From NCBI GenBank assembly GCA_020073385.1, contig JAIQFH010000001.1, positions 434,001 to 498,000 on the forward strand: a stretch of 64,000 bases of DNA, in the 5' to 3' direction. The notes below the pieces were generated by a model. The model did not search any database. It worked only from the letters and a program-made list of their open reading frames with translations, and had not been told where the DNA came from. Source of the DNA: Terriglobia bacterium. GTDB taxonomy: Bacteria > Acidobacteriota > Terriglobia > Terriglobales > Acidobacteriaceae. This document shows positions 6,726-34,153 of this stretch, piece by piece (position 1 is the first letter of the stretch; each line of letters opens with the position of its first letter). The position numbers and the translations under genes were made by a program.

Positions 6726-6741
6726 AAGAGGGTTCGGCGAT

Positions 6742-7944: not shown

Positions 7945-9183
7945 CTAGACCGGTAAGGCCGCGGTGCTCGGCCGGTTCGGACTTCGAGGATCGCCAGCGG
8001 CTGCACTCAGCGCCTCAGCAAATCGCATGGCAATCTGCGACCAATCGTATCGTGCGGCTAAAACTGCGGCATTGTCCTCGTAGCTTCTACGCAGCGTGGC
8101 ATCGCGTAAGACCGCCAAAATCGCGCCTGCGAATGACGATGCGTCATCGGCGAGCAGGCAATCTTTCCCGCTGGTCACATCCAGACCTTCGGCCCCGATG
8201 GAAGTTGAGACCATTGCCTTTCTCATGGCCATAGCCTCGAAAATCTTGAGCCGCGTGCCTCCGCCGATCCTTAGCGGCACGATCACAACGGTTGCGTTGC
8301 GCAAATAGTCGGCCACAGACGGAACTGTACCCGTCACCTCGATCGACGGAGACGCCAGTTTCCGCACCCGGGAATGAGGGTTTCGGCCCACAATCTGAAA
8401 TCGCGCATCAGGGAACGCCGCGAGTACGCTGGGGAAAATCTCGTCGCAAAAATATTCCACTGCATCAATATTGGGCTCCCAGTCCATGGAGCCAGTAAAG
8501 ACAATCAGCGGAGGATTGCCCGATACGGAGGGAGCGGGTTGATATTTCTCCGTATCAACCCCGGTTGGCACGACCGTTATGGCGCATCCCGGAGCCAAGG
8601 CCAACATCTCCTTGCGATCGTTGTCGGAGACCGCGATCACATGTTGGAACCGTTGCAAGGTCTGGGTCTCGTAGGCCGCCATTTTGCGTGCTTCTATCCG
8701 GTAAGACAGTTTTCGGAGTGCGGATTTCTCCGTATCCGCCATTCGTCGCCATAGCATGGTCTCAACGTTGTGCTGGAACAAAACTTCCGGAGTCGGCGAA
8801 GCCTCCGGGAAATTCAGCGATGCGGAAAGGAAATCGCATACAGCAACGTCGGCGCTGCCATCGCTCAACCTGCGCCCCACCTCGCGGCGAACTGTTGGGT
8901 GCGTAAACTTCTTTACCGCATACGGAGCCGCGGAAGGCAGACGCAGAATGTAGTCGATCGATTGCGCGATCGTACTTTCCGGCGCAGCCGTGTAGATCGT
9001 TTGCGCTCCGGGCAGTTGTTGGGCGATGGCGGTTTCATACTCGGCATCGCGTCGGCCGCCGTAATAAGAGAGCAGAGTGACTTCGTGATTTCTGGCGAGA
9101 TGCCTGAGGATGTTGAATGAGCGAATCTTGCCGCCCGTGTCGACCGGCCACAGTTTCCCCGCTTTTACCCAGAGTATCTTCAT
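7945..9183 (-). CDS. GT4-family glycosyltransferase
   Basis: The 412-residue product has the two-Rossmann GT-B layout. The N-terminal MKILWVKAGKLWPVDTGGK-type start is the acceptor side. The C-terminal half has VVPTGVDTEKYQP, FTGSMDWEPNIDAVEYF, IVGRNPHSRVRKL, and the nucleotide-sugar site around RIGGGTRLKIFEAMAMRKAM. It resembles the sugar transferases of exosortase-associated exopolysaccharide loci, although no exosortase is present in this window. It should transfer a sugar from a nucleotide donor to a growing lipid-linked oligosaccharide on the cytoplasmic face. It is 9 bp downstream of the nucleotide-sugar dehydrogenase gene and 3 bp upstream of the ATP-grasp gene. The exact sugar is unknown. 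Confidence 0.9.
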   Translation of the reverse strand: MKILWVKAGKLWPVDTGGKIRSFNILRHLARNHEVTLLSYYGGRRDAEYETAIAQQLPGAQTIYTAAPESTIAQSIDYILRLPSAAPYAVKKFTHPTVRREVGRRLSDGSADVAVCDFLSASLNFPEASPTPEVLFQHNVETMLWRRMADTEKSALRKLSYRIEARKMAAYETQTLQRFQHVIAVSDNDRKEMLALAPGCAITVVPTGVDTEKYQPAPSVSGNPPLIVFTGSMDWEPNIDAVEYFCDEIFPSVLAAFPDARFQIVGRNPHSRVRKLASPSIEVTGTVPSVADYLRNATVVIVPLRIGGGTRLKIFEAMAMRKAMVSTSIGAEGLDVTSGKDCLLADDASSFAGAILAVLRDATLRRSYEDNAAVLAARYDWSQIAMRFAEALSAAAGDPRSPNRPSTAALPV

Positions 9184-9192: not shown

Positions 9193-10518
9193 CTACCAGC
9201 ACAGCCCTTCGTAGGCCTTGCCGGCGGCGGGTCTCCGGGCCTTCTCCAGATTCACCAGGTCGACGACAACCTGCTCAGGGCGAAGATGAGACTCCAGTTT
9301 CTTGCGGTCGATCCCGCGCGTGCCAATCACCACCACGTCCGCCTTCTCCAAAACCTGTTCGAGATCGGAGGAAAGCAACGACCCGATATGCGGAATGACC
9401 TGCTCGATGTACTCGCGGTTTGAGCCGATCAAGCGGCCCAATGACACATTGTCATCCCAGATCTTCAGCTGGCACCCTTCTCCGATGAGTCGCTTTACCA
9501 GTTGCACCTGCGGGCTTTCCCGCAGATCGTCGGTCGCAGCTTTAAAACTCAAGCCCAGCATGGCGATATTCTTCTTCCCCGTGCTCAGCACAATTTCAAT
9601 CGCACGGTCGAGATGGGCATCATTGCTGGGCAGGACTGACTCAAAGAGCGGCAGTGCCAGATCAAGTTCCTTGGCGCGATAGTTCAGGGCGCGCACATCT
9701 TTCGGCAGGCACGAACCTCCGAAGGCGAAGCCCGGTTTCAAATACGAGGGCGAAATGTTCAGCTTCGTGTCAGCGGAGAAGATCTCGATCACGGCCTCGG
9801 CATCAACATCCATACTCTTAGCCATCGTTCCCACTTCATTGGCGAACGCAACCTTCACCGCGTGCCAGGCATTGCAGACATACTTGACCATCTCCGCCGA
9901 ACGGAATGAAGTTTCGAACACCTTTCCCGGGACCCAGGAATAAAGTTCGCGAAGGACTTTGCTGTGCGCAGGGTCTGACGCCCCGATGATCGTGATGGAC
10001 GGCTCCAGAAAATCGGCTACCGCTGTGCCTTCCCGCATAAACTCAGGGTTCACGCACACTCCGAAGTCCTTTCCCAACTTTTTGCCGCTGGCCTTCTCCA
10101 GCGTAGGAACGACGATCGTTTCAGCTGTGCCTGGCAGTACTGTGCTGCGCAACACGATCAGGTGAAACGAATCTTTCTTGCGCAGCGCTTGTCCGATCTC
10201 CTGGCACACTGGGCCAATATGCCCTAAATCCAGTTTGCCATTTCTCATGCTGGGAGTGCCTACGCAAAGGAAGGAGATCTCAGTTTCCAAAACTGCCTGT
10301 TGCGAATCCGAGGTGGCGTGCAAGCGGCATGCCTTCTGGCAGTCGGCAATCAGGTCTGAGACGGCGGGCTCCACAATGGGGCTGCGTCCGCTCCCCAAAG
10401 CCTCCACTTTGGCTGCGCTCAGGTCCACTCCCGTGACCCGGTTTCCCTTATGCGCCAGGCAGGCAGCTGTGACCGTACCTACATACCCCAACCCAAAAAT
10501 GCTGACCGTCCGGCTCAT
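9193..10518 (-). CDS. GDP-mannose/UDP-glucose 6-dehydrogenase family enzyme (AlgD-like)
   Basis: From the chosen ATG (10518-10516) the product is 441 residues; 13 extra N-terminal residues are possible. It has the NAD-binding GLGYVGT, the CVGTPS segment, NPEFMREG, the YVCNAWHAVKVAFANEVG helix, and the catalytic cysteine in PGFAFGGSCLPKDVRAL. The YVxNxWHA and LNIS-x-Y-x-x-PGFAFGGSC pattern is closer to GDP-mannose dehydrogenase AlgD than to UDP-glucose dehydrogenase. The enzyme would oxidise C6 of a nucleotide sugar twice to give a GDP- or UDP-uronic acid. It is the first gene of the leftward operon and diverges from the GT4-heparinase gene, so uronic acid supply is probably tied to polymer assembly. 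Confidence 0.9.
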   Translation of the reverse strand: MSRTVSIFGLGYVGTVTAACLAHKGNRVTGVDLSAAKVEALGSGRSPIVEPAVSDLIADCQKACRLHATSDSQQAVLETEISFLCVGTPSMRNGKLDLGHIGPVCQEIGQALRKKDSFHLIVLRSTVLPGTAETIVVPTLEKASGKKLGKDFGVCVNPEFMREGTAVADFLEPSITIIGASDPAHSKVLRELYSWVPGKVFETSFRSAEMVKYVCNAWHAVKVAFANEVGTMAKSMDVDAEAVIEIFSADTKLNISPSYLKPGFAFGGSCLPKDVRALNYRAKELDLALPLFESVLPSNDAHLDRAIEIVLSTGKKNIAMLGLSFKAATDDLRESPQVQLVKRLIGEGCQLKIWDDNVSLGRLIGSNREYIEQVIPHIGSLLSSDLEQVLEKADVVVIGTRGIDRKKLESHLRPEQVVVDLVNLEKARRPAAGKAYEGLCW

Positions 10519-10766
10519 TTCTTTGTATGGACCCTTTCCTGTCGCTCCGGAGTGCAAACTTCCAAGATAGCTTAGCTGGCGACTTGCGGCAATGCCAGTT
10601 ACTACCCGTAACCCATTGATTTACTGAGCCTTGGGTAATCCCGTGGACGCCTCTCGATATTGATGGACCGGTGGACTTTCGTCGTCCGCCAGTTCGTCAG
10701 GGGTGACCTGATACCAACTCTCGGGCTCTGTGCAGTGAGCCGAATTTGCCGCTACTATGAAGAAGC
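10519..10766. promoter_or_regulatory. Divergent intergenic region between two polysaccharide operons
   Basis: This 248 bp spacer separates the leftward operon starting at 10518 from the rightward operon starting at 10767, so it must hold promoters for both. I could not pick out reliable -35/-10 boxes or an operator palindrome. Assignment rests on gene orientation only. Confidence 0.4.
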
Positions 10767-13700
10767 ATGGGTCGCCACGGCCAGTCCCCGGATATTCTCG
10801 ATGCCGAACCGCCAGCCTCAACGCCGGTGCAAAGCGAGAGCCAAGATGCCCCCACGGAGACCACTCGTCAGCGAAAGGTCTTCTATCTCGTCGATTCGCT
10901 CAATGTCGGTGGCACCGAAGTGCAGGCGGTTGAACTCGCGACCAGGCTAAATCCCGAACACTACAACGTGACTTTGGGGTGTCTCCGTGCGCGTGGACCT
11001 TTGCTTGAGAGGCTACAAGGATCCTCCGTCTCCGTCCGCGAATTCTATCCCAAGGGTGGTTTCGATTCAGTTCAAGGCATCTATCAGATGTTCCGGCTTG
11101 CATGGTTCCTGCGGCGCGGACGGTTTCAAATCGTTCATACCCACGATCTTTACGCGAACGTGCTGGGTATCCCAGCGGCCGCGATCGCACGCGTTCCCGT
11201 CATCATTTCCAGCCAGCGCGACTTGGGCCATCTCGACCTATATAAGAGCGGGCGGCGTGTCTGGCTGCGACGCCTGCAGAAGCTTTCTACCGCGGTCTTG
11301 ACGAACGCCAACGCCGTCAGGGACGCGGTCTTAGCTGAGGACCACTTTGCTCCGGAAAAAGTGCGGGTCATCCATAACGGTGTGGATCTGGAGCGCTTCA
11401 GCCAGAGATCGAGCGAGAGAGCATGGCTGCTTCCCGACGCGGATCCGGAGAGCGCGCATCAGGAGAGATGGATCGTTCTCGTCGGGAATATGCATGGCGA
11501 TGTGAAGGGACACGCGGTGCTCATCGCCGCCGCCGAGACCGTGGCCCGTGAGTTTCCCAACGTCAGGTTTCTGTTTGCCGGTGATGGGGAGCGGAGAAAG
11601 GAATTTGAGGAACAGGTCGCGAGGCTTGGTCTCGGGAAGAACTTTTCCTTCTTGGGACGGCGCAATGATGTGCCGCGAATCCTCAGTTGCTCTGACCTAG
11701 GAGTGCTTCCGTCCCAGGCCGAGGGTCTTCCGAATGCGGTCCTGGAATATCTCGCTGCTGGTCTTCCTACCATCGCCAGTCGGGTCGGAGGCAACGTCGA
11801 AATTATTCAGGAGGGCAAGACCGGGTTGCTGGTCCCGCCGGATGAACCTTCCGCCCTCGCAACTGCGCTTCTCCGACTCTTGCGCGATCCCAACCTCGCG
11901 GCAGAATTAGGAAGAAACGGACGGAGCTTTGTCTCCGCCGAATTCAGCTTCGAGCGCATGATCGAAAAGACGGATCAGATGTACACCGAATTGCTTCAAT
12001 CGAGAGGTGTCGAAACGAACCTAGAGCCGAACAGTAGCTCGGAGGGTTGGAGACGCGTATATCGGCGCGTGCGCTCGATGGAAGGTCCGGAGGTCACGGA
12101 CCGGCTCCGGCAGTACGCGACCGCACGTCTGGATTGGGTACGTTACAAAGTCGGTTCCGATTTCTTTCCCGAAATCTCCACCGTCCCGCAAGGGCAGCCG
12201 CGATTCTTCTTCTCCCCGGAAGAGGTTCCACATCTCTGTTCCAGGTTGCGAGAGTTGTTTCCTGAGACCGTTGAAGAGATCGTCCGCCGGGCCCAGCGCA
12301 TCTGCCAGCATCGTTTCGACCTTCTGGGCTACGAAGCAGTCGACTACGGCACCGAGATCGACTGGCACTGCGATCGTGTTCACGGCAAACGCGCGCCACT
12401 GAAACCTTGGTTCAAGATGAAGTATCTGGATTTTGACCAGGTCGGTGACAGCAAAGTTACGTGGGAACTGAACCGCCATCAGCACCTGGTCACGCTAGCC
12501 AAGGCCTTCCGGCTGACCGGCGACGCGAAATTCGCCTCGGAGTTGTTCGCCCAGTGGCATCACTGGCACTCCGAAAACCCGTATCCCATCGGCATCAATT
12601 GGGCCAGCAGCCTGGAAGTAGCCTTTCGCAGCTTGTCGTGGCTCTGGACTTACTTTCTGATGGCCGATTCTCCTGCAATGCCAACAGGGTTTCGTCGCTT
12701 ATGGCTGCGTTCGTTGGCGGTTTCCGGTCGCCACATCGAGAGCTATCTCTCCACATACTTCTCGCCTAACACGCATCTCCTCGGTGAAGCCGTCGCTTTG
12801 TTCTTCATCGGCACCCTTTGCCCGGAGATTCCCGCATCCCGTCGATGGCAACAGCTTGGATGGAAGATCGTGCAAAAAGAGGCGACGCGTCAGGTTCGCA
12901 GTGATGGTCTACATTTCGAGCAGTCGGCGTACTATCACGTCTACGCTCTGGACCTCTTCCTGCATTCTGCGATCCTGGCTTCCGTCAATCACATCGAGGT
13001 GCCGAAAGAGTTCGATCAGACGCTGGAGAAAATGCTGGATGCGCTGGCCGTACTGGCTCGTGGCGGAATGGTGCCCGGCTTTGGCGATGACGATGGCGGC
13101 CGCCTCTTCGATTCCGCCCGAAATCGAATGATGCACATGACGGATCCCTTGGCTACAGGAGCCGTGCTCTTCGGACGAGGCGATTTCAAAGACGTTGCCG
13201 GCGGGCCGCGTGAAGAGACGCTTTGGCTGCTGGGCGAGGCTGGCATGCATGAATTCCAACAGATTCCGTCAAAGCCGGTCCCGGAGGCCTCCGCTGCATT
13301 CCGCCCCAGCGGCCTATATGTTATGTCGGGAAACGAGCGCAAGTGGCAGTTAGTGATGGATGCCGGTCCCCAGGGGGCCCACACAGCCGGGCACGGACAT
13401 GCAGACGCGCTAAGCCTGACTCTCACCGCTTCCGGCCGCGAATTGCTCTCGGATGCCGGGACCTTTGAGTACGTTGGCCCGGACTCCGAACGGGACCGTT
13501 TTCGCGGAACCAGCGCTCACAACACTCTGATGGTCGGTGGCAAAGATCAGACGCAACCGCGCGGCCCTTTCGGATGGGATCGCTTGCCTGACGTTCAGGC
13601 CGAGGGCTGGATCAGCGGCAAAACGTTTGACCTGTTCGTCGGCAGCCACGACGGTTATTCACGCTTGCCGAATCCGGCCATTCATCGTCGTTTCGTGCTC

Positions 13701-14393
13701 GCGCTGAAATCGGGCCTGATCCTGGTGCGCGATCTGGTTCTCGGATTCGGAGAGTACCCCGTCGACATATTCTGGCATCTCGGTCACGGCTTGACGGAAC
13801 AGTCCCCGGACCTCTTCTTCGGCGACGGTGCCGGTCTTCGTGTCATAACTGTGGATGGACACGAGTGGTCCCGCAATGTCGAAGAGCACTTTCATTCGCC
13901 GGTCTATGGAGTGAAACAGACTCACAAAGCTCTCCACTTCGCCACCCGGGCGAAGCTTCCAACTGAGTTCGTGACTTTGCTCATGCCGGTATCGACGGCG
14001 AAAAGCTCCGATGACAAACTTGTGAAAATCCCTGGGCAATCCGCGGCATCCGGCTCTTGCGTTGGATACCGTTATAAGACAAGCAGTGATGAGCATTGCT
14101 TCTTTTTTGGACAAGGGGCGCCGTGGAGGATGGATTCCTGGAACACCGACGCCGAAGTGCTGTATTTCGGCCGATTCGCCGATGCATCCCAGGTCAGGTT
14201 CTTCTGCTGCAATGCGACATCCGTGGAGTGGGAAGGCAAAAAGATTGTGAGTGCCAAGAGGCCGGTTTTGCGCTGCGAGGTGATCGGAAGTCCCGCGGCT
14301 ATTGTCAGCAGCGATCCCGATGTCGTGTCTGTGGACATTGAAGCGTGGATGACGCTAGTAAACTCTTCCCAAGTGCCGGTGAAGGCAATCTAG
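10767..14393 (+). CDS. Fusion of GT4 glycosyltransferase and heparinase II/III-type lyase
   Basis: A single uninterrupted 1208-residue frame joins two domains normally encoded apart. Residues 35-415 are a GT4 transferase: LVDSLNVGGTEVQAVELA, HTHDLYANVLG, VIHNGVDLERF, and the donor site PSQAEGLPNAVLEYLAAGLP. After a short linker, residues 430-1208 match the heparinase II/III (PL12/15/17/21-like) layout. This is an alpha/alpha toroid with NTHLLGEA (668-675) and SDGLHFEQSAYYHVYALD (Tyr722/723), then a beta-sandwich with AGHGHADAL (near 875) and RGTSAHNTL. Such lyases cleave uronic-acid glycosidic bonds by beta-elimination. No signal peptide is seen, so the lyase half would be cytosolic. It is followed after 16 bp by the AsnB-like gene. 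The fusion may couple chain extension with cleavage or length control, which is inferred. Confidence 0.88.
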   Translation: MGRHGQSPDILDAEPPASTPVQSESQDAPTETTRQRKVFYLVDSLNVGGTEVQAVELATRLNPEHYNVTLGCLRARGPLLERLQGSSVSVREFYPKGGFDSVQGIYQMFRLAWFLRRGRFQIVHTHDLYANVLGIPAAAIARVPVIISSQRDLGHLDLYKSGRRVWLRRLQKLSTAVLTNANAVRDAVLAEDHFAPEKVRVIHNGVDLERFSQRSSERAWLLPDADPESAHQERWIVLVGNMHGDVKGHAVLIAAAETVAREFPNVRFLFAGDGERRKEFEEQVARLGLGKNFSFLGRRNDVPRILSCSDLGVLPSQAEGLPNAVLEYLAAGLPTIASRVGGNVEIIQEGKTGLLVPPDEPSALATALLRLLRDPNLAAELGRNGRSFVSAEFSFERMIEKTDQMYTELLQSRGVETNLEPNSSSEGWRRVYRRVRSMEGPEVTDRLRQYATARLDWVRYKVGSDFFPEISTVPQGQPRFFFSPEEVPHLCSRLRELFPETVEEIVRRAQRICQHRFDLLGYEAVDYGTEIDWHCDRVHGKRAPLKPWFKMKYLDFDQVGDSKVTWELNRHQHLVTLAKAFRLTGDAKFASELFAQWHHWHSENPYPIGINWASSLEVAFRSLSWLWTYFLMADSPAMPTGFRRLWLRSLAVSGRHIESYLSTYFSPNTHLLGEAVALFFIGTLCPEIPASRRWQQLGWKIVQKEATRQVRSDGLHFEQSAYYHVYALDLFLHSAILASVNHIEVPKEFDQTLEKMLDALAVLARGGMVPGFGDDDGGRLFDSARNRMMHMTDPLATGAVLFGRGDFKDVAGGPREETLWLLGEAGMHEFQQIPSKPVPEASAAFRPSGLYVMSGNERKWQLVMDAGPQGAHTAGHGHADALSLTLTASGRELLSDAGTFEYVGPDSERDRFRGTSAHNTLMVGGKDQTQPRGPFGWDRLPDVQAEGWISGKTFDLFVGSHDGYSRLPNPAIHRRFVLALKSGLILVRDLVLGFGEYPVDIFWHLGHGLTEQSPDLFFGDGAGLRVITVDGHEWSRNVEEHFHSPVYGVKQTHKALHFATRAKLPTEFVTLLMPVSTAKSSDDKLVKIPGQSAASGSCVGYRYKTSSDEHCFFFGQGAPWRMDSWNTDAEVLYFGRFADASQVRFFCCNATSVEWEGKKIVSAKRPVLRCEVIGSPAAIVSSDPDVVSVDIEAWMTLVNSSQVPVKAI

Positions 14394-14409: not shown

Positions 14410-16347
14410 ATGTGTGGAATCTGCGGAATCTTCTTCGCGAATCGCGAGTGGCGCGTCCAGGGCGATGTGCTCGCGCGCATGAACCGCCGCATTGTGCATC
14501 GCGGGCCCGATGATGAGGGATTCTTCGTCGAGGAGAACGTCGGCCTTGCGATGCGCCGACTGAGCATAATTGACGTCAAAAGCGGCCATCAGCCTCTGGC
14601 GAATGAGAATCGCGATGTCTGGATCGTTTTCAACGGCGAGATCTATAACCACGCCGAACTGAGAGAGGATCTGGAAGCACGCGGTCATCAGTACCGCACA
14701 CGCAGCGACACTGAGACCATCGTCCACCTCTACGAGGAATATGGATCCGATTGCGTGATGCATTTGCGCGGCATGTTTGCATTCGTGATCTGGGACCGCC
14801 GTAAACGCGTTCTTTTCGCAGCCCGTGATCGCCTCGGCATCAAACCTTTCTACTATCGCTGGGACGGAAAGTCGTTTCTCTTCGGCTCCGAAATTAAAAC
14901 GATCCTGACGTATCCCGGCGTCGATGCTGAATTCGACCGGGGTCGACTCGCGGAATATCTCACCTTCGGATACGTTACCGGGCCGCAGACCATGTACTCG
15001 GGCATTCGCAAGCTGATGCCCGGGCACACACTCGAGCTGAGCGAGCGCGGCGAGCCCAAGATCACTCGCTACTGGGACCTCGTCGTGCCTGTGGATGAAT
15101 TGCCGCGCGAACACAGTTACTACGTGAAGAACTATCGTGAGAAGCTTGAGTCTGCTGTCGGATCGCACCTGATGAGCGACGTGCCGTTAGGCGTCTTTCT
15201 CAGCGGCGGTCTGGATTCGAGTGCGGTCGCCGCCCTGACCGCGAAGATTCGCGGCGATAAGATTCAGACGTTCGCCGTCGGCTACGGCGAAGAGGAGTTC
15301 AGCGAACTTCCTTACGCCCGGCAGGTCGCCGCGCACATCCATTCGGATCATCACGAAGTTCGTCTCAGCCGGGGGGAATTTTTTGACAGCCTGCCGCGCC
15401 TGATCTGGCATGAGGACGAACCGATCGTCTGGCCGTCGAGCGTCTCTCTCTACTACGTCGCACGCCTTGCGCGAGAACGGGTGACGGTGGTGCTTACCGG
15501 CGAAGGCAGTGATGAGACCTTGGCAGGCTACACCCGCTACGCATGGACGCTTTTGAATTCGAAGATGGATCGCACTTATCGTGCGACGACGCCCGCATTC
15601 CTCCGCCGCTGGCTCCGACAGGGAATTGCCTCGGCCCCGCTTTCCGCCAGCCTGCATCGCAAGCTCGAGCACACTTTTCTCATGCGAGACGGCGCCTCGT
15701 GGCCATCTTTTTACTTCGACAACTTCTACTCCGCATTTTCGGATGCTGAGTTCAGCGAGCTTTTGACGCCGGAAGCGTTGCGATCGGCAGGTCCGGCCTA
15801 TGACGGATCGATGGAGCCTTGGGAGCACTCCTCCGGCGATCTTCTGCACCGCTTGCTCTACACCGATATCAACAGCTATCTGATTGAGCTGCTGATGAAG
15901 CAGGACCAGATGAGCATGGCCGCCTCGATTGAGAGTCGCGTGCCTTTCCTCGACCATCCGCTCGTCGAATTCACCGCTCGTATTCCCGCATCCCACCAGA
16001 TCAAGGGGATGGCCGGCAAATTCATTCTGAAAGAAGCCGTCGAAGATCTTCTGCCGCATGACATCATCTACCGCAAGAAGATGGGATTCCCCACGCCCTG
16101 GGCTTATTGGCTGGCTGGACCTCAACTGCAGCAGATCGAGACTCTGCTGACAGGTCCTCGAAGCACTGCCCGCGGCCTGTTTCGTCCTGAGGTGATTTCC
16201 CGAATCTTCGCTGAGCATCGTGCCGGGCACCGCGATCATGGCAATCGCATCTGGCGGCTGCTGAATTTCGAGTTATGGCAGAGAGCCTGTCTCGAGGGAG
16301 ATCTCGAGTCCACCACCACCGCGGTTCCAGCGAATGCCGCTATCTGA
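14410..16347 (+). CDS. Asparagine synthase-like glutamine amidotransferase
   Basis: The 645-residue product starts MCGICGIF, so Cys2 is the N-terminal nucleophile of the class II glutaminase domain. RLSIIDVKSGHQP, FNGEIYNHAELR and the SDTETIVHLYEEYG segment follow. The C-terminal synthetase domain has the PP-loop motif VFLSGGLDSSAVAAL (near 265) and the GEGSDETLAGY motif. Relatives in exopolysaccharide clusters are annotated as XrtA-associated amidotransferases and probably amidate a sugar carboxylate rather than aspartate. The gene lies between the GT4-heparinase gene (16 bp upstream) and a deacetylase gene (39 bp downstream), so amidation of a uronic acid is a reasonable inference. True asparagine synthesis cannot be excluded by sequence alone. 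Confidence 0.9.
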   Translation: MCGICGIFFANREWRVQGDVLARMNRRIVHRGPDDEGFFVEENVGLAMRRLSIIDVKSGHQPLANENRDVWIVFNGEIYNHAELREDLEARGHQYRTRSDTETIVHLYEEYGSDCVMHLRGMFAFVIWDRRKRVLFAARDRLGIKPFYYRWDGKSFLFGSEIKTILTYPGVDAEFDRGRLAEYLTFGYVTGPQTMYSGIRKLMPGHTLELSERGEPKITRYWDLVVPVDELPREHSYYVKNYREKLESAVGSHLMSDVPLGVFLSGGLDSSAVAALTAKIRGDKIQTFAVGYGEEEFSELPYARQVAAHIHSDHHEVRLSRGEFFDSLPRLIWHEDEPIVWPSSVSLYYVARLARERVTVVLTGEGSDETLAGYTRYAWTLLNSKMDRTYRATTPAFLRRWLRQGIASAPLSASLHRKLEHTFLMRDGASWPSFYFDNFYSAFSDAEFSELLTPEALRSAGPAYDGSMEPWEHSSGDLLHRLLYTDINSYLIELLMKQDQMSMAASIESRVPFLDHPLVEFTARIPASHQIKGMAGKFILKEAVEDLLPHDIIYRKKMGFPTPWAYWLAGPQLQQIETLLTGPRSTARGLFRPEVISRIFAEHRAGHRDHGNRIWRLLNFELWQRACLEGDLESTTTAVPANAAI

Positions 16348-16386: not shown

Positions 16387-17445
16387 ATGCTGAGGAATGC
16401 CAAACTCGCAGCCCTAAGCTTCCTCCGAAGTGCAGGAGCCTTTGAAGCTGTCGCTAACAGCAAGTGGCGACGCGACCGCCTGCTGATCCTTTGCTATCAC
16501 GGCACTTCACTTGAGGACGAGCATCAGTGGAGGCCGGCACTCTACCTCGCACCTCAGGTCCTGGAACAGCGCCTGCAGTCCTTGCGCGCAACGCGTTGTT
16601 CCGTTCTGCCACTGGGAGAGGCTCTTCAGCGCCTGCAGGCTCGCGATCTCCCGCCACGCAGCGTTGCCGTGACATTTGACGACGGCGCCTATGACTTCTA
16701 CCGCCAAGCCTATCCATTGCTGAAAAGCTACGGCATTCCCGTGACTGTTTATCAAACCACCTATTACACCGACAATCCTATGCCGGTGTTCAACCTGATC
16801 TGCTCGTACATGCTGTGGAAGCGGCGCGGCGACCAGTTGGGCCCGATCCCCGAACTCGGCCTCACCCAGGCGATGGATCTGAGCACGCAGTTAGGCCGGC
16901 ATAAAATCGTACGCATCCTGGTGGAACGATCGGAGCGCGAGAATCTGAGTGGCCGGGAAAAGAACGAGATTGCTCGGCGCTTGGCGGGCGCGTTGGGAAT
17001 CGATTATGCGGCGCTCACCATCAAGCGCATTCTGCAACTCATGAATGCTCAAGAAGTGGCCGAAATCGCCAAAGAAGGCGTCGACGTGCAACTGCACACC
17101 CATCGCCACCGCACCCCGGACGACGAAGCCCTCTTTCGACGTGAGATCGCCGACAACCGTGGGCGGATCCAATCTCTAGTCGGGCACAGCGCCAGGCACT
17201 TTTGTTATCCGAGCGGAGTGTACCGGCAAGAATTCGTTTCCTGGTTGGAGAAGGAAGGTGTGCTATCGGCCACAACCTGCGATGCGGGCCTGGTCAAGCG
17301 CGGTGACAACCCATTCCTGCTATCGAGGTTTGTGGACACGACGGGCCGAACGCAATTGGAATTTGAAAGCTGGCTCAGCGGCCTCGGAGCCCTGATTGCC
17401 TTCCGCAGGGCGGCAACGCAGAGCTACACCTTACCGGAGGACTAA
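16387..17445 (+). CDS. Polysaccharide deacetylase family protein
   Basis: The 352-residue product contains the NodB-type motifs: CYHG near residue 37, the metal-binding TFDDGAYDFY near 97, and a histidine motif HTHRHRT near 237. A 100-residue insertion lies between the first two motif regions, longer than in minimal CE4 enzymes. FCYPSGVYR near 277 is the usual later motif. It should remove N-acetyl groups from a sugar polymer or its lipid-linked precursor. It ends the rightward operon that starts at 10767. Its stop codon overlaps the stop of the convergent CysQ-type gene by 4 bp. No signal peptide is obvious. Confidence 0.87.
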   Translation: MLRNAKLAALSFLRSAGAFEAVANSKWRRDRLLILCYHGTSLEDEHQWRPALYLAPQVLEQRLQSLRATRCSVLPLGEALQRLQARDLPPRSVAVTFDDGAYDFYRQAYPLLKSYGIPVTVYQTTYYTDNPMPVFNLICSYMLWKRRGDQLGPIPELGLTQAMDLSTQLGRHKIVRILVERSERENLSGREKNEIARRLAGALGIDYAALTIKRILQLMNAQEVAEIAKEGVDVQLHTHRHRTPDDEALFRREIADNRGRIQSLVGHSARHFCYPSGVYRQEFVSWLEKEGVLSATTCDAGLVKRGDNPFLLSRFVDTTGRTQLEFESWLSGLGALIAFRRAATQSYTLPED

Positions 17446-18248
17446 CGCGGCGAAGAGGCCGTCGGAAGGTGCGTCTGCACCGCAGCCAGCAGTTCCTCGC
17501 GCAGGAAAGGCCCGCTGGCCAGAAGTCCGGACAGAAGAGGATTCTTGCGATTGCACTGCAGAGGAGTATTCTCCAACGTGCTCACAAATCCGCCCGAACT
17601 CGCTACCAGCGCCGCGCCCGCAGCCACATCCCACTCGTTCTTCGGAGTCAGTGTAAAAGTGATATCTGCCAGTCCTGCCGAAACCAAGCCAAGCTTGTAC
17701 GCCACCGATCCCATGGGACGAATCTGATAATCGCCGCTCTGAAACTGCTGCCACTCGCCACGCTTCACCTCGCTACGGCTGGCAAGGATCAGCGAGCCTT
17801 TCAAGGAAGTCCTTTGACTTGGTTTGGCGGGCTTGCCGTTATAAAGCACTCCCGCGTCGATCGCGCCGATGATGGTTTCATTTGTGGCGGGATTACAGAT
17901 GCCGCCGGCCACAGGTCGTCCGTCTTCGACGAACCCAATCGAAACACAGAACTCGGGTATGCCCTGAACAAACTCTCGCGTGCCGTCAAGCGGATCCACC
18001 ACCCAGACTCGACTCTTGGAAAGCCGAGAAACATCGTCAACGCTCTCCTCGGAAAGCCACCCTTCGCGGTCCCGCAGTAGGTTCTGGCGCAGCACGGCGT
18101 CCACCGCGCGATCCGCCTCAGTCACAGGATCGTGTCCAATCTTGTATTCCGTCTCAATGGCGCCCGGGGTAAACCGCGCAAACACAGCTCGTGCCGCTTC
18201 AATCGCAGCTTCGATGCGGGTAAGAATGTCCGAATAGGCAGAGGTCAT
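17442..18248 (-). CDS. cysQ: Inositol monophosphatase family, probable 3'-phosphoadenosine 5'-phosphate phosphatase (CysQ-like)
   Basis: The 268-residue product has the lithium-sensitive phosphatase signatures: TEADRAVD, SEES, the metal site WVVDPLDGTREFVQG (about 92-106) and the C-terminal EWDVAAGAALVASSGG. In sulfating organisms CysQ hydrolyses PAP, the by-product of sulfotransferases, to AMP, which relieves product inhibition. Inositol-1-phosphatase is the main alternative. PAP phosphatase is favoured because the gene sits in one leftward block with the PAPS synthase gene, near three sulfotransferase genes. AAGGA lies about 7 nt before the ATG. A small palindromic element separates it from the TauE-type gene upstream. 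Confidence 0.85.
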   Translation of the reverse strand: MTSAYSDILTRIEAAIEAARAVFARFTPGAIETEYKIGHDPVTEADRAVDAVLRQNLLRDREGWLSEESVDDVSRLSKSRVWVVDPLDGTREFVQGIPEFCVSIGFVEDGRPVAGGICNPATNETIIGAIDAGVLYNGKPAKPSQRTSLKGSLILASRSEVKRGEWQQFQSGDYQIRPMGSVAYKLGLVSAGLADITFTLTPKNEWDVAAGAALVASSGGFVSTLENTPLQCNRKNPLLSGLLASGPFLREELLAAVQTHLPTASSPR

Positions 18249-18281
18249 GAGGTCCTTGAAAATGCGTTCTCTAACAGGCTG

Positions 18282-18406: not shown

Positions 18407-18411
18407 TCTTG

Positions 18412-19188: not shown

Positions 19189-19203
19189 ATATCTGTTGTT
19201 GTG

Positions 19204-20949
19204 TTAGGCCGCAGCTCCGTTCACTCCGATGAAGCCCTCGCGCTCCAGGTGCAGAATAATTTCCTGTGCAGCTTCCTCGGGTGACAACTCACCGGTGTTG
19301 ATTGTTACCTCGGCATCCGCCGGAGCCTCATACGGATCGGAGATTCCGGTGAACTCTTTGAGAATGCCCGCTCGAGCCTTGGCATAGAGGCCCTTGCGAT
19401 CCCGTTGCTCGCACACTTCCACCGAAGTCGCGACATGTACCAGGATGAAACCGCCGAAGGGCTCGACCATCTGGCGAACGTGCTTACGGGTCGCGTCATA
19501 GGGAGCGATGGGCGCGCAAATCGCGATCCCGCCGTTCTTGGTGATCTCCGACGCCACATATCCGATTCGTCGGATGTTGATGTCACGGTGTTCCTTCGAA
19601 AATCCTAGCTCAGACGAAAGATGCTTGCGCACCAGGTCTCCATCCAGCAAGGTCACCGGACGCCCGCCGACTTCCAGGAATTTCGTAAGCAATACATTCG
19701 CGATCGTCGACTTGCCGGAACCCGACAGGCCAGTGAAGAAGATGGTCACGCCCTGCCGGCTGCGTGGCGGAAAGCTGCGCCGTAATTCGTGAACTACCTC
19801 GGGATAGGTGAACCAACCCGGAATGTCACGCCCTTCATTCAACCGCTGACGCAGTTCCGTGCCCGAGATGTTCAGAACACGATCTCCCTTCTTTACCTCG
19901 TCATCGGGGATGTAACGGTCCTCGCCCTCGAGATAGACCATCATGCTGAAGGGGACCATGGTTACGCCAATCTCAGGCTCATGCTTCTTGAAGACTTCCT
20001 GCGCTTCGTACGGGCCGTAGAACGGCTTGCCATCTGTGTCCTTGCCCGGACCCGCGTGATCGCGTCCAACGACCAGGTGCGTGCAGCCGTGATTCTTGCG
20101 GATGAGTGCGTGCCAGATCGCCTCGCGTGGCCCCCCCATGCGCATGGCAAGGGGCAAAAGAGAGAGCTTCTGCGTCCCCTGCGGATACTTCGAACCAAGC
20201 AACTGATAACAACGCACCCGCGTGTAGTAGTCCACGTCGCCTGGCTTGGTCATTCCGACGACAGGATGGATCAAAAGGTTGGCTTCGACTTGCTTGGCAG
20301 CGCGAAATGTCAGTTCGACGTGCGCGCGGTGCATAGGATTTCGAGTCTGGAAAGCCACAACGCGGCGCCATCCCAGACGGGCAAACTCGTTGCGAAGCTC
20401 GGCGGGAGTGAAGCGCAAAGTGCGGAAATCGTAGTGCGAAGGCATCTGCAACCCTTCGACGCGTCCTCCAACGTACCAGGGGTTGGCGATATTCATCGCA
20501 TAGTTCGCGCCGGGGTGGGCCTTGCTGGTGCTTTTGAACACAGCTTTGGCTTCGGCAGCGCGGTCCGGTTGCCAGACTTCTTCGACGTGCAGCACGGCGA
20601 GCATTACGCCCTCAGGATCGCGTAGCGCCACTTTGCTGCTGCCCGGAGTCAACTTCTTGGCGAATTCTTCCGTCACATCCAGCGTGATCGGCATCGGCCA
20701 CAGGATTCCGCTGGCCAGCTTCATGTTTTGGCAGACCCCTTCATAGTCGGCTTTGGTCATGAAGCCGCGTAGCGGGGAAAATCCTCCGCTCATGAGCAGT
20801 TCGAGGTCACAGATTTGGCGAGCAGTAAGATCCCAGGACGGCCATTCGCGGGAATGGGCTTTGAGTTCTGCAGCTTTTTCAGAAGATGCGAGCAGATCAG
20901 TCAGTTCACCACCGTGCGGAGCAATTAAATGACTAGTCGAAGCGGACAA
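19204..20949 (-). CDS. sat-cysC: Bifunctional sulfate adenylyltransferase / adenylylsulfate kinase (PAPS synthase)
   Basis: The 581-residue product carries both halves of PAPS synthesis. Residues 1-390 are ATP sulfurylase, with the active-site FQTRNPMHRAH, VGRDHAGPG and a GTELRQRL segment. Residues 395-581 are APS kinase, with the P-loop GLSGSGKSTIAN (near 405), DGDLVRKHL and FIGVN near the end. The enzyme makes PAPS, the universal sulfate donor. No ATG exists near the domain start; the TTG at 20949 is chosen because GGGAGG lies about 9 nt upstream. The gene heads the leftward sulfur block with TauE and CysQ. Lack of a PAPS reductase nearby suggests the PAPS is for sulfotransfer rather than cysteine synthesis, which is inferred. 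Confidence 0.95.
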   Translation of the reverse strand: MSASTSHLIAPHGGELTDLLASSEKAAELKAHSREWPSWDLTARQICDLELLMSGGFSPLRGFMTKADYEGVCQNMKLASGILWPMPITLDVTEEFAKKLTPGSSKVALRDPEGVMLAVLHVEEVWQPDRAAEAKAVFKSTSKAHPGANYAMNIANPWYVGGRVEGLQMPSHYDFRTLRFTPAELRNEFARLGWRRVVAFQTRNPMHRAHVELTFRAAKQVEANLLIHPVVGMTKPGDVDYYTRVRCYQLLGSKYPQGTQKLSLLPLAMRMGGPREAIWHALIRKNHGCTHLVVGRDHAGPGKDTDGKPFYGPYEAQEVFKKHEPEIGVTMVPFSMMVYLEGEDRYIPDDEVKKGDRVLNISGTELRQRLNEGRDIPGWFTYPEVVHELRRSFPPRSRQGVTIFFTGLSGSGKSTIANVLLTKFLEVGGRPVTLLDGDLVRKHLSSELGFSKEHRDINIRRIGYVASEITKNGGIAICAPIAPYDATRKHVRQMVEPFGGFILVHVATSVEVCEQRDRKGLYAKARAGILKEFTGISDPYEAPADAEVTINTGELSPEEAAQEIILHLEREGFIGVNGAAA

Positions 20950-23633: not shown

Positions 23634-24316
23634 GACGTTGCGCCTGGTTGTTTCGTGGATGAGAACACAGTCGCGGCCAGCAGATTCTGAATGCAGGTCT
23701 GCAATTGCCGCGCGCAATAGCGCGTGACCTCCAAGTCTCCAAGATACGGGTCAGGAATCTCCCGGTGCTTCCACGCGCCTTCCGCGAATGCACTCAGCAT
23801 GTGAATCTTTTCGGCCGACTCTGGATACAGCGTCAGCAGTTCCGCCTTATTCTGGAAGTCCATGGCAAAGATAGCGTCCGCCGCATCCGCCATCTCCCGC
23901 GTCAGCAGCTTAGCTCGGTGCGTTGTCAGGGAGATGCCCAGGTCCGCCGCCGCTTCTTGCATCCAGGGATGAGCCTCCCGTCCCGGATTTGCGTGCAATC
24001 CGGCAGAGACGATGCGGACCTTCTCAATCTCCCCCGGCGCAGTTTCGTTGAGAGCTTTGCGCATCAGGGCTTCCGCCATGGCGCTGCGCATGATGTTTCC
24101 AAAGCACACAAAAACAAACGATCGCGCCGAAGAAGGTACGGCCCGCTGATCTTCACCACGCATGCCCAAGACGTCGCGCATCCTCAATCCCGCATAAATC
24201 CTGCCCGCTCCCGGACCAAGCCGCCGGATGATTCCTCGCTGTTGCAACAAGAACCGCGGAATAAACTTCCGCACTACATCCTTGAAAGTTCTAGGCTGGA
24301 CAGCTTCTTCGGTCAC
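23606..24316 (-). CDS. Low-molecular-weight protein tyrosine phosphatase (Wzb-like) with N-terminal extension
   Basis: The start is a GTG at 24316 that overlaps the upstream sulfotransferase stop in a GTGA junction, with AGGGA upstream; this gives 236 residues. The phosphatase loop is CFGNIMRSAMAEAL, so Cys71 and Arg77 fit CX5R, although the usual second Cys of the loop (NICRS) is Met. The general-acid DP motif is IPDPYLGD. The first 65 residues are an extra basic region not found in minimal Wzb-type enzymes. In capsule loci such phosphatases reset the BY-kinase Wzc; no Wzc or Wza gene is in the window. It is the last gene of the leftward sulfotransferase/NRPS run. Confidence 0.85.
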   Translation of the reverse strand: MTEEAVQPRTFKDVVRKFIPRFLLQQRGIIRRLGPGAGRIYAGLRMRDVLGMRGEDQRAVPSSARSFVFVCFGNIMRSAMAEALMRKALNETAPGEIEKVRIVSAGLHANPGREAHPWMQEAAADLGISLTTHRAKLLTREMADAADAIFAMDFQNKAELLTLYPESAEKIHMLSAFAEGAWKHREIPDPYLGDLEVTRYCARQLQTCIQNLLAATVFSSTKQPGATSYEEPLART

Positions 24317-25221
24317 GAACGAGTTCCCTGATGTGAGATGGATTCGACCTGCGCCGCCTTGCTGCCTGACGACAGCTCGTATCCGAGACTTTGCATCAGG
24401 TCGCCCCACGCCGATTCGATTGCCTCTACCGATTCGGGAGCGAGTTGCGATTTCCACCCTCCTGCTTTTGCCGTTCGCACGAATGGCTTGTCGCTCCGTG
24501 TGCTCTTGGTCAGCACCCAGCTTGCCGCCTCTTCTTTCTCCAGCGCTCGCATGCGTTCTGGAGAGCTGAGTTCGATCGCTCTCTGCAGCGCTTCGGGACT
24601 CGAATCAATTTTCCGGAATGAACAGTGCTCCAGAAATGCAACGACATGCAGAAGCGCTCCTGCTGTATCGCGCTTCATCTCCTCATAGCGCAGCATCATG
24701 AAATTTGGATTCTCGCCGCGCAAGGAAACCCAGCTCAGCACGTTATCCCGCCAGGAGCCGAACTTTTGATCAAACTCTCCGCCGATGAAGCGCGGCACAA
24801 AACTGGTCATTGGATAATCGTCTGGAATATTTCTCGCCTTCACATTGTGATGGTAGAAGGAAATCGCCACATCTCGCGGATCGCGCACCACGTAGATCAC
24901 ATGCGGATAATGCGGCTGAAATGGTTCATGACTCTTCAGCATGCGCGGACGCGGCAGGGCCCGCAGCTCCCGATCCCGATTGAAGTAAATCTCCGGAATG
25001 CGCGATTCGATATTCGAAAATGTGACGGGCGCATCGGGGTAGAGAAGGTTGCCCAGCAGAAACCGCGTCCACGTGTTGCCTGAGCGCGGATACGACACCA
25101 GAAAGACATCATCGGGATAAACCGTCACTCCGCGCCCGGCAAGCTGCCTTCCCGTAAGCACGCGACCAGCCTGAGTCAGTGCCCCCAGCGCTCTGTCCAG
25201 TTTCTTCGTCGGTCCAGGCAT
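24313..25221 (-). CDS. PAPS-dependent sulfotransferase
   Basis: The chosen ATG at 25221, 5 bp after the stop of the upstream sulfotransferase, gives 302 residues. The 5'-phosphosulfate loop is SYPRSGNTWTRF (about 43-54) and the 3'-phosphate site is VIYVVRDPRDVAISFYHHN (near 110). A C-terminal KAGGWKSQL corresponds to the GxxGxWK PAPS-binding loop. It should transfer sulfate from PAPS to a hydroxyl or amine of a sugar. No signal peptide or anchor is seen, so it would act in the cytoplasm on lipid-linked or precursor sugars. It is a tandem paralogue of the next gene upstream. Confidence 0.93.
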   Translation of the reverse strand: MPGPTKKLDRALGALTQAGRVLTGRQLAGRGVTVYPDDVFLVSYPRSGNTWTRFLLGNLLYPDAPVTFSNIESRIPEIYFNRDRELRALPRPRMLKSHEPFQPHYPHVIYVVRDPRDVAISFYHHNVKARNIPDDYPMTSFVPRFIGGEFDQKFGSWRDNVLSWVSLRGENPNFMMLRYEEMKRDTAGALLHVVAFLEHCSFRKIDSSPEALQRAIELSSPERMRALEKEEAASWVLTKSTRSDKPFVRTAKAGGWKSQLAPESVEAIESAWGDLMQSLGYELSSGSKAAQVESISHQGTRS

Positions 25222-25226
25222 ATTTT

Positions 25227-26081
25227 TCAGCTTCTCACCAGTTCCCGTTCCCCGTGCGCTTCTGTAACGAGTTCGTACCCCAGTTCCTTCATCGTTAATC
25301 CCCAAGCCTGTTCAATGGTCCGTACGGCTACTGCCGACAGCTTGCTCCTCCAGCCCCCAGCCTTGGCTTCGCGCACAAAGGGAATATCCTGACGGGTATC
25401 TTTCGTTGCCGTCCACTCTTTGGATTGCTGCTTCTCCAGTGACTGCATATTGCCAGCGGAACTCAGTCGAACGGCTCGCTCGATTCGCTCGGGAGTGGGA
25501 TCGATTCCCAGCAGTGGCGCCAAGGCTCGAAGCTCCTTCTCAGGATCGGTCAGCAAATCCTCATACCGCACAAGCCTGAACCCTGATTTCCCCTCTCGCA
25601 ACCGTACCCAACTTAGTACATGATCCTGCCAACAGCCCACGCGATCGGCATAACCCACCACCTTAGCCGCTACAAATCTTTCCACAAACTCGTCCATGGA
25701 ATATCCGTCGGGAATCACTCGAACCTTGAGGTTGTAAAAGTAGAAGGACACAGCCACGTCGCGCGGATCGCGGACGATGTAGATCACACGAGGATATCGC
25801 GGATCAAAACATTCATGACTCTTCAAGACGCGGGGCAGTCTTCGCAACTCATGATCCGGAAGATCGTAAATGATCGGCACAAGCCGGGACATGTTGGTGA
25901 AGGTCACAGCTTCTTTTTCGTGAATCAGGTTGCCGAACAGGAATCGCGACCAGGTGCTGCCCGAACGGAAGTAGCTGACCAGGAAAACGTCATTTGGAAG
26001 CACCGTGAGTCCGCGTCCCGCGGGCGTCCGCCCAAGTGCGGCTTTGGCTCCCCTCTTCAGTCGTGCAAATAGCCGGTTCAC
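25227..26081 (-). CDS. PAPS-dependent sulfotransferase (tandem paralogue)
   Basis: The chosen GTG at 26081 has GGAG 8 nt upstream and avoids overlap with the flippase gene, giving 284 residues. The 5'-phosphosulfate loop is SYFRSGSTWSRF and the 3'-phosphate site is VIYIVRDPRDVAVSFYFYN. KAGGWRSKL near the C-terminus matches the PAPS loop. It is clearly related along its length to the product of 24313-25221, including GRGLTV-x-P-DVFLVSY and the KSHE segment, so the pair arose by tandem duplication. Two enzymes could sulfate different positions or different sugars of the repeat unit, which is inferred. The stop is 5 bp from the next start, so the two are co-translated. Confidence 0.92.
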   Translation of the reverse strand: MNRLFARLKRGAKAALGRTPAGRGLTVLPNDVFLVSYFRSGSTWSRFLFGNLIHEKEAVTFTNMSRLVPIIYDLPDHELRRLPRVLKSHECFDPRYPRVIYIVRDPRDVAVSFYFYNLKVRVIPDGYSMDEFVERFVAAKVVGYADRVGCWQDHVLSWVRLREGKSGFRLVRYEDLLTDPEKELRALAPLLGIDPTPERIERAVRLSSAGNMQSLEKQQSKEWTATKDTRQDIPFVREAKAGGWRSKLSAVAVRTIEQAWGLTMKELGYELVTEAHGERELVRS

Positions 26082-26106
26082 CCCGTATTCTCCGCTCGTC
26101 GCATTT

Positions 26107-27660
26107 CTATGCTTCTTCCTGGTAGGTCTCAACCAAAGCCATCGAAATCTCGTCTTCCTGGTTGGCCACCAACTGGCCCACATCCCACGCTCGGTGAGTC
26201 CAGAACGCCCAAGCCAAGCCAATTCCGTAAACCACGCCACCAATTACAAGTTGTACCAGCAGATCGGGCAAGTGATGCGGGATGTACCACCGCCGCATCA
26301 ACAAAAGGCACGCCACCAAAGGAACGCTCAACAAAAGCGGCAGCAGGAAAGCTTGCGACAGGTAGGTTCTGAGTTTGATCCCCAGAAGATTGCAGAGGTG
26401 ACGCGGCAGGAAGAAGATCATCGAACAGGCAAGGGGAATCGCAGTTCCGATCGCGTCTCCGAGAATTCCGTAGTGCCGGACTAAAATGACGCTCAGGATC
26501 AGATTCGAAATCCCCTCTGCCAGAACAACGAACGCCCACGTGCGATGCTTCGCCATTCCCCACAGCGTCCGCCCCGACGCAGATTGCGCCAGCATCAAGG
26601 TTGTCGGATAGAGCAGCACCAACAGTACGGGATAGCTCTGCGCTACGTACTTCGCGCCCATCCACGCTTCGATCACAGATTTACCCAGGAGAGTGAGCAC
26701 CGCGGTAATAGGAAATATGATGAACGCGCAGGCACGATTTCCCACCACGAAAATCTTGCGCAGCCCGTCGAGGTCGCCTTTCGCCTGCGACTGGCTCGAC
26801 ATCGGAATAAAAATTTGTGCCAGGCTGCTTACGACCTCCGAGGAGTAGTCCACCAGGCGCGAACCGATGGTGAAGAAAGTGATGGCGGATGCTCCTACAA
26901 ACGTACCAATCACCATCGCATCCGTCTTGAACCGCAGCCGGCCCCCTACGATGATCAGAAATGTCGTACCGCTGTAGCCGGCAATCAGCTTCAGAGTGGT
27001 CCGGTTCACAAACTGCGGATTGATCCGCAGTTTCAGATGCCGAAACGCAACCGTCGCGTTTACCATCTGATTGATGAGAGGAAGCACGACTGTGATGAAT
27101 GCGACTGAGAGCAGTCCGCCGCCATGCTGCAGTGCAATCACAATCAGAACTGTTCGCAGGATGGTGGAGGCAATGTTCGTGAAATTCAGAACATAGAATC
27201 GCTGCAGCCCTTCCAGAATTCCGCTGAAGACTCCGAGTGGAAATCCCAGTGACACCGAAGCCCCGACCATTACCAGCAGCCAGCGCGCGGTCGTCACAAA
27301 CTCCGGCTGGATCTTGAAAATCGAGTTTACGAAGTATGCCGCGACCAGTGTGATCGACATGGCCACAGCGCCAATTGCGCCGTAGCTGAACATCGCCGTA
27401 TTCACCAGTCGGTTCAGCTCATCGTATTCCCCGGTCGCCGAGTACTTCGCCACGTACCGAACGATCGAAGACCGAATCCCAAGATCGAAAAGCCCGTAAT
27501 AGCCGGTGACAGAAAAGATCAGAATCCAGAGACCAAACGCTTCATCCCCGAGATGATGAACGATAAACGGCGAGAGGATGAAGCCGGTCACAACGTTGAC
27601 GCCAAGCGAAAACCAGCTCGACGAAACGTTCTTGAGAATCTGGCCCTTGTTGAATTTCAT
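26107..27660 (-). CDS. Polysaccharide/O-antigen flippase (Wzx-like, MOP superfamily)
   Basis: The 517-residue product has 12-14 hydrophobic segments and the start typical of lipopolysaccharide repeat-unit flippases (SSSWFSLGVNVVTGFILSPF). Wzx proteins turn undecaprenyl-linked oligosaccharides to the periplasmic side of the inner membrane. Its ATG overlaps the NRPS stop codon (ATGA junction), and the sulfotransferase start follows 25 bp after its stop. This supports co-expression of lipid-linked assembly, sulfation and the NRPS. A Wzy polymerase was not recognised in the window, although the GT39-like protein at 36129-37817 is the nearest large membrane protein. Confidence 0.9.
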   Translation of the reverse strand: MKFNKGQILKNVSSSWFSLGVNVVTGFILSPFIVHHLGDEAFGLWILIFSVTGYYGLFDLGIRSSIVRYVAKYSATGEYDELNRLVNTAMFSYGAIGAVAMSITLVAAYFVNSIFKIQPEFVTTARWLLVMVGASVSLGFPLGVFSGILEGLQRFYVLNFTNIASTILRTVLIVIALQHGGGLLSVAFITVVLPLINQMVNATVAFRHLKLRINPQFVNRTTLKLIAGYSGTTFLIIVGGRLRFKTDAMVIGTFVGASAITFFTIGSRLVDYSSEVVSSLAQIFIPMSSQSQAKGDLDGLRKIFVVGNRACAFIIFPITAVLTLLGKSVIEAWMGAKYVAQSYPVLLVLLYPTTLMLAQSASGRTLWGMAKHRTWAFVVLAEGISNLILSVILVRHYGILGDAIGTAIPLACSMIFFLPRHLCNLLGIKLRTYLSQAFLLPLLLSVPLVACLLLMRRWYIPHHLPDLLVQLVIGGVVYGIGLAWAFWTHRAWDVGQLVANQEDEISMALVETYQEEA

Positions 27661-32998: not shown

Positions 32999-34153
32999 CT
33001 ACGGTTGTCCCGCCATCCTACCCACGGTTGATCTTTCCCCGGCTAAGTCGCAATTTGCTTGGGCTTGCGCCGCAACCCGCATCCGCTCGGCCGCGCTCTC
33101 ATCCACCAAGACAATGTCGTCCACGTCTTTCGAAGTCAGAGGTTTCCGCAGCGCTCGCAGCACGCTGTTCTTCTTCGACTGGAGCTTCGATTCGAAGAAG
33201 TTGCGGTATAGCTGGCGATTCCATGCCCGATACAGCGGATTGCAATCCTCATGGCCTGTGGTCGCCAGTTCGTATCCAAGCTCGGTGAGCGTGCCGCCTA
33301 CCAACCCCTCAATCCTGGTGAGTTGCTCGCGAGTTAACTGCTGTTTCCATCGCGCAATGGGATTAAAGTTTTCTTCACCCGAGCGTCGAAATGAACTATT
33401 CGGTTTCGCCACCGCGCCAACCCGGTTTTCCAGGATGCGATCGTAGTCCAGATCATGCTCCAGAAATGCACTCAGTGTTCGAAGAACCGAACGGGGGTCG
33501 CGCACCAGTTCTTCGAAGTGAATTTCAATGTAATCATCCCCCAACTCGGTGCCCGCAGCCTTTCCTTTGTTGATTATCCACTCCCAATAAAGGGCCGCGC
33601 CCTCTGGCGTTTCGCGCTCCTTCCACGGAAATGGCCGGATATATCGTTTCTGCGAAAGCGAGACGCTCACGTCACGCCCGTCACGAATCATGTGGATCAC
33701 AAGTGCGTCAGGGATCGTCTTTTTGATCTGCCGCAGGTGAAGAATCTCTTCCGGAGCATTCCCAGCCCAGCGGCGCGCACCTTGCTGCCGGGCCATTTCC
33801 TCCATCACGATTCGCAAAAAATCACCCGCGTTACGGCAATCGTTCAGAATCCTTGATTCCACATCGTTGCGATTCAGTCCGGAAACCCGAAACAAACTGC
33901 TGCCGAGCCATACCTGCCACATCTTTTCCCGGTTTTTGCGGACCGCCAAGTCACCAAATCGTGGCGCCAAGAGATTGAAAACATTAGATTCACCCAGATA
34001 GAGTGCAAATCCCCCGGCTGAAAGCAGCATGTCGTAGAGGAGGGTAGTGCCAGAACGTGCGCTTCCAACCACAAAGACCGGGGCACAACTCCTGCTTCTG
34101 ACGTGTGGGGCCGATTCCAAGTGCAAAACCTCAGCGATGTGTCGGATGCGCAA
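32999..34153 (-). CDS. Sulfotransferase family protein (Sulfotransfer_3-like)
   Basis: The 384-residue product has the 5'-phosphosulfate loop VGSARSGTTLLYDML (about 29-43) and the 3'-phosphate site VIHMIRDGRDVSVSLSQ (near 155). Its sequence differs from the tandem pair at 24313-26081: SARSGTT instead of YPRSGNT, and a longer C-terminal basic tail. It probably belongs to a different sulfotransferase branch with another acceptor. No signal peptide is visible. It begins the leftward run and is separated by 130 bp from the GT2 gene upstream. Together with the PAPS synthase and CysQ it completes a sulfation module. Confidence 0.9.
   Translation of the reverse strand: MRIRHIAEVLHLESAPHVRSRSCAPVFVVGSARSGTTLLYDMLLSAGGFALYLGESNVFNLLAPRFGDLAVRKNREKMWQVWLGSSLFRVSGLNRNDVESRILNDCRNAGDFLRIVMEEMARQQGARRWAGNAPEEILHLRQIKKTIPDALVIHMIRDGRDVSVSLSQKRYIRPFPWKERETPEGAALYWEWIINKGKAAGTELGDDYIEIHFEELVRDPRSVLRTLSAFLEHDLDYDRILENRVGAVAKPNSSFRRSGEENFNPIARWKQQLTREQLTRIEGLVGGTLTELGYELATTGHEDCNPLYRAWNRQLYRNFFESKLQSKKNSVLRALRKPLTSKDVDDIVLVDESAAERMRVAAQAQANCDLAGERSTVGRMAGQP

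Follow-up and report, generated by a model that had tools for sequence, protein, structure and literature searches.

The window, by which we mean the whole 64,000-nucleotide stretch of Terriglobia DNA that was analysed, encodes a genuine fusion of a GT4 glycosyltransferase (GT) and a heparinase II/III-type domain in a single chain of 1208 residues (10767..14393, + strand). The architecture is new, and it is built from known parts in a known kind of gene setting. For the heparinase-like half, a putative role in the editing, or in a C5 reaction, of precursors that contain uronate is more plausible than the control of chain length.

One reading frame encodes a GT4 domain and a heparinase II/III-type domain

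The open reading frame at 10767-14393 runs from ATG to TAG with no internal stops, as the first-pass annotation had described it, with neither a stop nor a frameshift between the two domains; the same fusion is present in L038 and L009. The GT4 domain covers residues 35–410 (10869..11996, + strand, as for all features of this gene). Both Rossmann halves of the GT4 fold (PF13439 and PF00534/PF13692) scored above cut-off, with Glyco_transf_4 at residues 47–210 and Glyco_trans_1_4 at residues 234–374 (2.7e-38), and the EX7E motif, E319GLPNAVLE327, is found in the C-terminal half of the GT (11721..11747). A short, disordered linker (residues 411–438; 11997..12080), which corresponds to the stop/start junction of the separate genes in relatives, leads into the heparinase II/III-type part, which as a whole covers about residues 439–1200.

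This part comprises an (alpha/alpha) toroid (residues 439–835; 12081..13271) and a beta-sandwich domain (residues 836–1170; 13272..14276). The Pfam profiles Hepar_II_III_N (residues 509–763, 8.3e-35) and Hepar_II_III_C (residues 839–1041, 9.3e-40) were both matched above their cut-offs, and the predicted toroid plus beta-sandwich fold is likewise that of the heparinase II/III superfamily. The Pfam search thus confirms the completeness of both domains that had been read from the translation, and the three motifs listed at that time are all present, NTHLLGEA at residue 668, the Tyr-Tyr pair at 722–723, and GHGHADAL at 875.

No obvious signal peptide was seen at the N terminus and no transmembrane-like segment was present in the protein, where the highest 19-residue hydropathy (1.78) lies inside the beta domain. 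The lack of a secretion signal is consistent with the earlier description of the chain as cytosolic. An internal restart of the lyase was also considered and seems less likely, as the GGAGG at 12041 is placed some 32 nt before the in-frame ATG at 12078 and does not make a good site.

The fusion is present in independent assemblies and both halves are under purifying selection

An assembly artefact, which the first-pass annotation had raised as a possible source of the joined frame, was ruled out, because the same fusion was found at 89% identity in L038 (isolate gp1 AA130, a separate metagenome assembly) and at 58% identity in G186, which belongs to a more distant lineage. G748, from the family survey, has equal length and 89% identity, and looks like the same species as L038.

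Between the window and L038, dN/dS was lowest in the GT (0.08), followed by the toroid (0.10), the beta domain (0.14), and the linker (0.36). The values for the domains indicate that both fused halves are under purifying selection and have been kept working.

Relatives encode the two halves as adjacent genes

Most relatives carry the two domains in two genes, a splitting that the first-pass annotation had named as a point against its proposal, and in nine of them the same GT and lyase genes are directly adjacent, back to back as separate frames. These gene pairs share an ATGA overlap (L012, L013, and L095), overlap by 28 nt (L014), are separated by an in-frame TAG with 3–6 nt between GT and lyase (L010 and L011), or have gaps of a few nt (L098, L100, and L102). 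These separate adjacent genes, in several cases with overlapping stop and start codons, show that the fusion arose when a stop codon was lost between two closely packed operon neighbours.

In the order survey, a match to either half was found in 107 of 298 genomes, and in the family survey, with a stricter cut, in 79 of 398; the fusion was seen in both surveys taken together only in three species, those of the window, L038, and G186. A search of 396 genomes across the phylum, which was not exhaustive, gave no further fusions among the long frames checked, in which the GT and the lyase each had a frame of their own, either apart or overlapping; coverage was largely confined to this phylum. In relatives, the nearest GT homolog is itself a tandem GT4-GT4 protein of ~800 aa; one of these (L052:12224-14620) was profiled, and others are equally long.

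In the trees of either half, the window and L038 are sister to an ATGA-overlap pair and lie apart from G186, and with this placement the label "fused" needs two changes. The simplest reading of these sequence trees would be two independent gains of the fusion, the alternative being one gain with later splits.

It is quite possible that the fusion is a neutral accident of stop-codon loss, with the domains working independently as they do in relatives, and the very short junctions in the nine adjacent unfused pairs fit this explanation. In the AlphaFold model of residues 9–1208, two folded parts are joined by a short low-confidence linker (pLDDT under 50 for residues 414–427), and the pTM of only 0.65 for this near-full-length chain suggests no firm contact between the GT and lyase domains; the linker is also more relaxed in dN/dS than the domains. 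However, the fusion has been kept between the window species and AA130 at a synonymous divergence of ~0.4, and two changes are needed on the trees, and both points speak against a neutral accident.

The lyase half retains the catalytic Tyr and His of heparinase III

The active site was compared with that of Pedobacter heparinase III, for which the roles of the catalytic residues have been described (PMC12088678). Y723 (12933..12935) aligns with Tyr294, and H876, within G875-H876-G877-H878 (13389..13400), aligns with His424. In N668-T669-H670 (12768..12776), however, it is T669 that falls in the Asn240 column, and Asn668 stands one place earlier; an alignment shift of one residue is possible. 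The equivalents of Y723 and H876 are invariant in 32 homologs. NTH is found in 32/32 close homologs and in nearly the whole phylum-wide acidobacterial subfamily, whereas two more distant paralogs have GNH or SNH at this site and a Shinella relative has NNH.

The earlier concern that catalytic residues might be missing thus applies to the Asn column, occupied by Thr, and not to the Tyr and His; a degenerate lyase was rejected with regard to Tyr, His, and selection. These alignments suggest that the subfamily differs at the carboxylate-neutralising site, where either the Asn is shifted by one residue or a true substitution has occurred. As to membership of PL12, the aligned Tyr and His agree with heparinase III and the Asn240 column, as aligned, does not, and the score of 114.6 bits is below the NCBIfam HepC equivalog cut-off of 700 bits. 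To our knowledge, no activity has been measured for any member of the subfamily of the lyase half.

The AlphaFold model of the lyase half (pLDDT 85.6, pTM 0.90) shows a helical toroid and a beta-sandwich. A structure search with this model returned heparinase III first (Z 27.8), followed by PL17/PL15/PL39 and others, and also dermatan sulfate epimerase 1 (DS-epi1, 6HZN; Z 22.3 over 590 residues). The lyase-fold half might therefore be a uronyl C5-epimerase, which would convert glucuronate to iduronate in the repeat unit before sulfation, the kind of reaction that DS-epi1 carries out with this fold. DS-epi1 uses His205, Tyr261, and Tyr473 in a heparinase II-like site, and the fold, which lyases and epimerases have in common, does not tell the two apart (PMC8006597). 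Altered chemistry might be reflected in the Thr of the Asn column, and the window contains genes for sulfate activation and three sulfotransferases. Conversely, the structure search gave higher scores to heparinase III and to several of the alginate lyases, and an epimerase is fairly improbable here.

The fusion lies in an exosortase-linked Wzx/Wzy exopolysaccharide locus

The divergent neighbour of the fusion gene, which is kept in relatives, encodes a nucleotide-sugar dehydrogenase, UDP-glucose 6-dehydrogenase-like and nearest to AglM/TuaD (9193..10557, - strand), and is followed by a TIGR03087-like GT4 (XrtA system; 7945..9183, - strand), below its model cut-off in the profile search. On the other side lie an asparagine synthase-like amidotransferase near TIGR03108 (XrtA system, also below cut-off; 14410..16347, + strand) and a polysaccharide deacetylase-like gene (16387..17445, + strand). 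A Wzx-type flippase is encoded at 26107..27660 (- strand). Some 34 kb upstream, the same contig encodes an exosortase that exceeds the XrtA cut-off and a PrsT-like protein that exceeds its own, together with an export protein, a chain-length protein, a tyrosine kinase, a priming transferase, and a Wzy_C protein. These genes show that the locus is an exosortase-linked Wzx/Wzy exopolysaccharide locus.

In addition, genes for sulfate activation are found inside this locus at 17442-20949, namely a CysQ-like member of the inositol monophosphatase family (17442..18248, - strand), an ATP sulfurylase-APS kinase (19204..20949, - strand), and TauE, together with three sulfotransferases on the - strand, two within 24313-26243 (24313..25305 and 25227..26243) and one at 32999..34153. 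In 15 of the 17 related genomes examined, the stretch around the lyase includes genes for sulfation (a sulfotransferase, an ATP sulfurylase-APS kinase, or a CysQ-like gene), a count that has no background control. Taken together, the dehydrogenase, the XrtA-type genes, Wzx/Wzy_C, and the sulfation genes point to a sulfated, uronate-containing exopolysaccharide as the probable product, made via the Wzx/Wzy pathway.

Several other features of the region were observed. The segment 27657-32389, embedded in the polysaccharide locus, encodes a 1317-aa protein that, as read from the translation, resembles a non-ribosomal peptide synthetase of one module ending in a thioesterase-like part, and also includes a phosphopantetheinyl transferase-like gene. 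A polysaccharide deacetylase stands beside an ATP-grasp protein in two copies (5940-7941 and 21417-23633). A protein that looks exported (3293-5704), carries a putative Ig domain, and by eye resembles a beta-helix is kept beside the locus in relatives, and the interval from the exosortase genes to the window includes a two-domain oxidoreductase (zinc-dehydrogenase plus GFO/IDH/MocA; L092:7065-9245).

The lyase half may edit precursors on the cytosolic side

In Wzx/Wzy pathways, the lipid-linked repeat unit is assembled by enzymes in the cytosol, and polymer formation follows in the periplasm once the unit has been flipped. The family and the locus suggest that the GT4 half would transfer a sugar onto a repeat unit carried by undecaprenyl at the inner membrane face. 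The heparinase-like half would act in the cytosol in this pathway too, deprotonating the C5 of a uronate, and its substrate may be a lipid-linked precursor or a stray oligosaccharide. Cleavage would most likely proceed by beta-elimination, by which wrong intermediates would be edited or cleared. The fusion would set GT and lyase at 1:1 and place the editing enzyme at the site of assembly, and substrate channelling would not be required.

That the lyase half edits or clears lipid-linked or stray oligosaccharides by beta-elimination is favoured tentatively, at somewhat below an even chance. This proposal is supported by the occurrence of the pair as a fusion in two lineages and as neighbours in nine relatives, by purifying selection on both halves, by the lyase fold model with its invariant Tyr and His, and by the UDP-glucose dehydrogenase-like gene with the Wzx/Wzy_C, export, chain-length, and exosortase A set. 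It is also supported by Shinella, where a GT4 and a lyase gene overlap by ATGA and have a nucleotide-sugar dehydrogenase gene as their neighbour. Against an editing lyase stand the Thr at the Asn position and the fold shared with the C5-epimerase DS-epi1. A nearby route for unsaturated uronate was not seen, the single GH88 match of the genome being on another contig. Since most relatives have separate genes, physical coupling of GT and lyase is dispensable.

The first-pass annotation had called the fusion unusual and had taken it to suggest coupled chain-length control or editing; under chain-length control, the lyase would trim the polymer that its own GT half is extending. Both domains do lie in one chain, and degradative enzymes occur in polysaccharide operons, such as the periplasmic AlgL (PMC8829089). 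However, AlgL works in the periplasm and not in the cytosol, the fusion has no secretion signal or transmembrane segment, and the Wzx/Wzy locus itself encodes a chain-length protein and a kinase. In such a pathway, a protein of the cytosol encounters lipid-linked units rather than the finished polymer, and control of chain length is therefore highly improbable; with most relatives split and a Wzx/Wzy-type locus, a singular coupling for this purpose is not supported. The editing that had been proposed alongside it is possible for lipid-linked precursors.

A more far-reaching picture is that the exopolysaccharide of these acidobacteria is sulfated and glycosaminoglycan-like, and that the heparinase-fold enzyme, linked to its GT4 in the cytosol, epimerises or edits a uronate while the precursors are still lipid-linked; this is rather unlikely. 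Heparinase-like genes sit in the polysaccharide synthesis loci of Acidobacteriota and Rhizobiaceae, where no assigned role was found for them, and fusion to the neighbouring glycosyltransferase is good evidence of one shared pathway, and probably of one place; the fused chain is, in addition, a compact protein for testing the role of the lyase.

Comparison with known systems

In the literature on heparinase-like genes in EPS loci, nothing on point was found. Heparinase III (PL12; Pedobacter heparinus HepC, 4MMH) is the best match by both sequence (1e-31) and structure, at 26% identity, with the same toroid and beta-sandwich and equivalents of Y294 and H424. Unlike heparinase III, the fusion has Thr at Asn240, no secretion signal was seen, the locus is biosynthetic, and a GT4 is attached. 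Human DS-epi1 has the same two-domain fold, but is only 13% identical and is an epimerase of the eukaryotic Golgi.

For the GT half, the best NCBIfam match is TIGR03088 (XrtA/PEP-CTERM system GT; residues 37–410), whose curated cut-off of 409.05 bits exceeds the observed 211.4 bits and whose model has no lyase domain. AlgL of P. aeruginosa, whose toroid matches with Z ~18, is likewise a lyase within a polysaccharide synthesis operon, and offers a precedent for a lyase serving synthesis, in the periplasm; in contrast to the fusion, it is a periplasmic, unfused protein with a single toroid domain.

A parallel in gene order is found on Shinella and Rhizobium plasmids, where a related lyase gene comes after genes for a GT4 and a nucleotide-sugar dehydrogenase within a cluster of Wzx/Wzy type. 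In Rhizobium sp. CC-CFT758 (L106:8944-10741), the annotation splits the lyase gene into two pieces that overlap, apparently because of a frameshift. The protein of Shinella plasmid paSHIWSC3, annotated as "alginate lyase family / heparinase II/III family", is 30% identical over ~630 residues and likewise has no obvious signal peptide. It differs from the fusion in that the lyase gene is separate, NNH replaces NTH, and the upstream GT4 is only 22% alike. The pairing of GT4 and lyase thus extends beyond Acidobacteriota, although the GT4 there is a different one.
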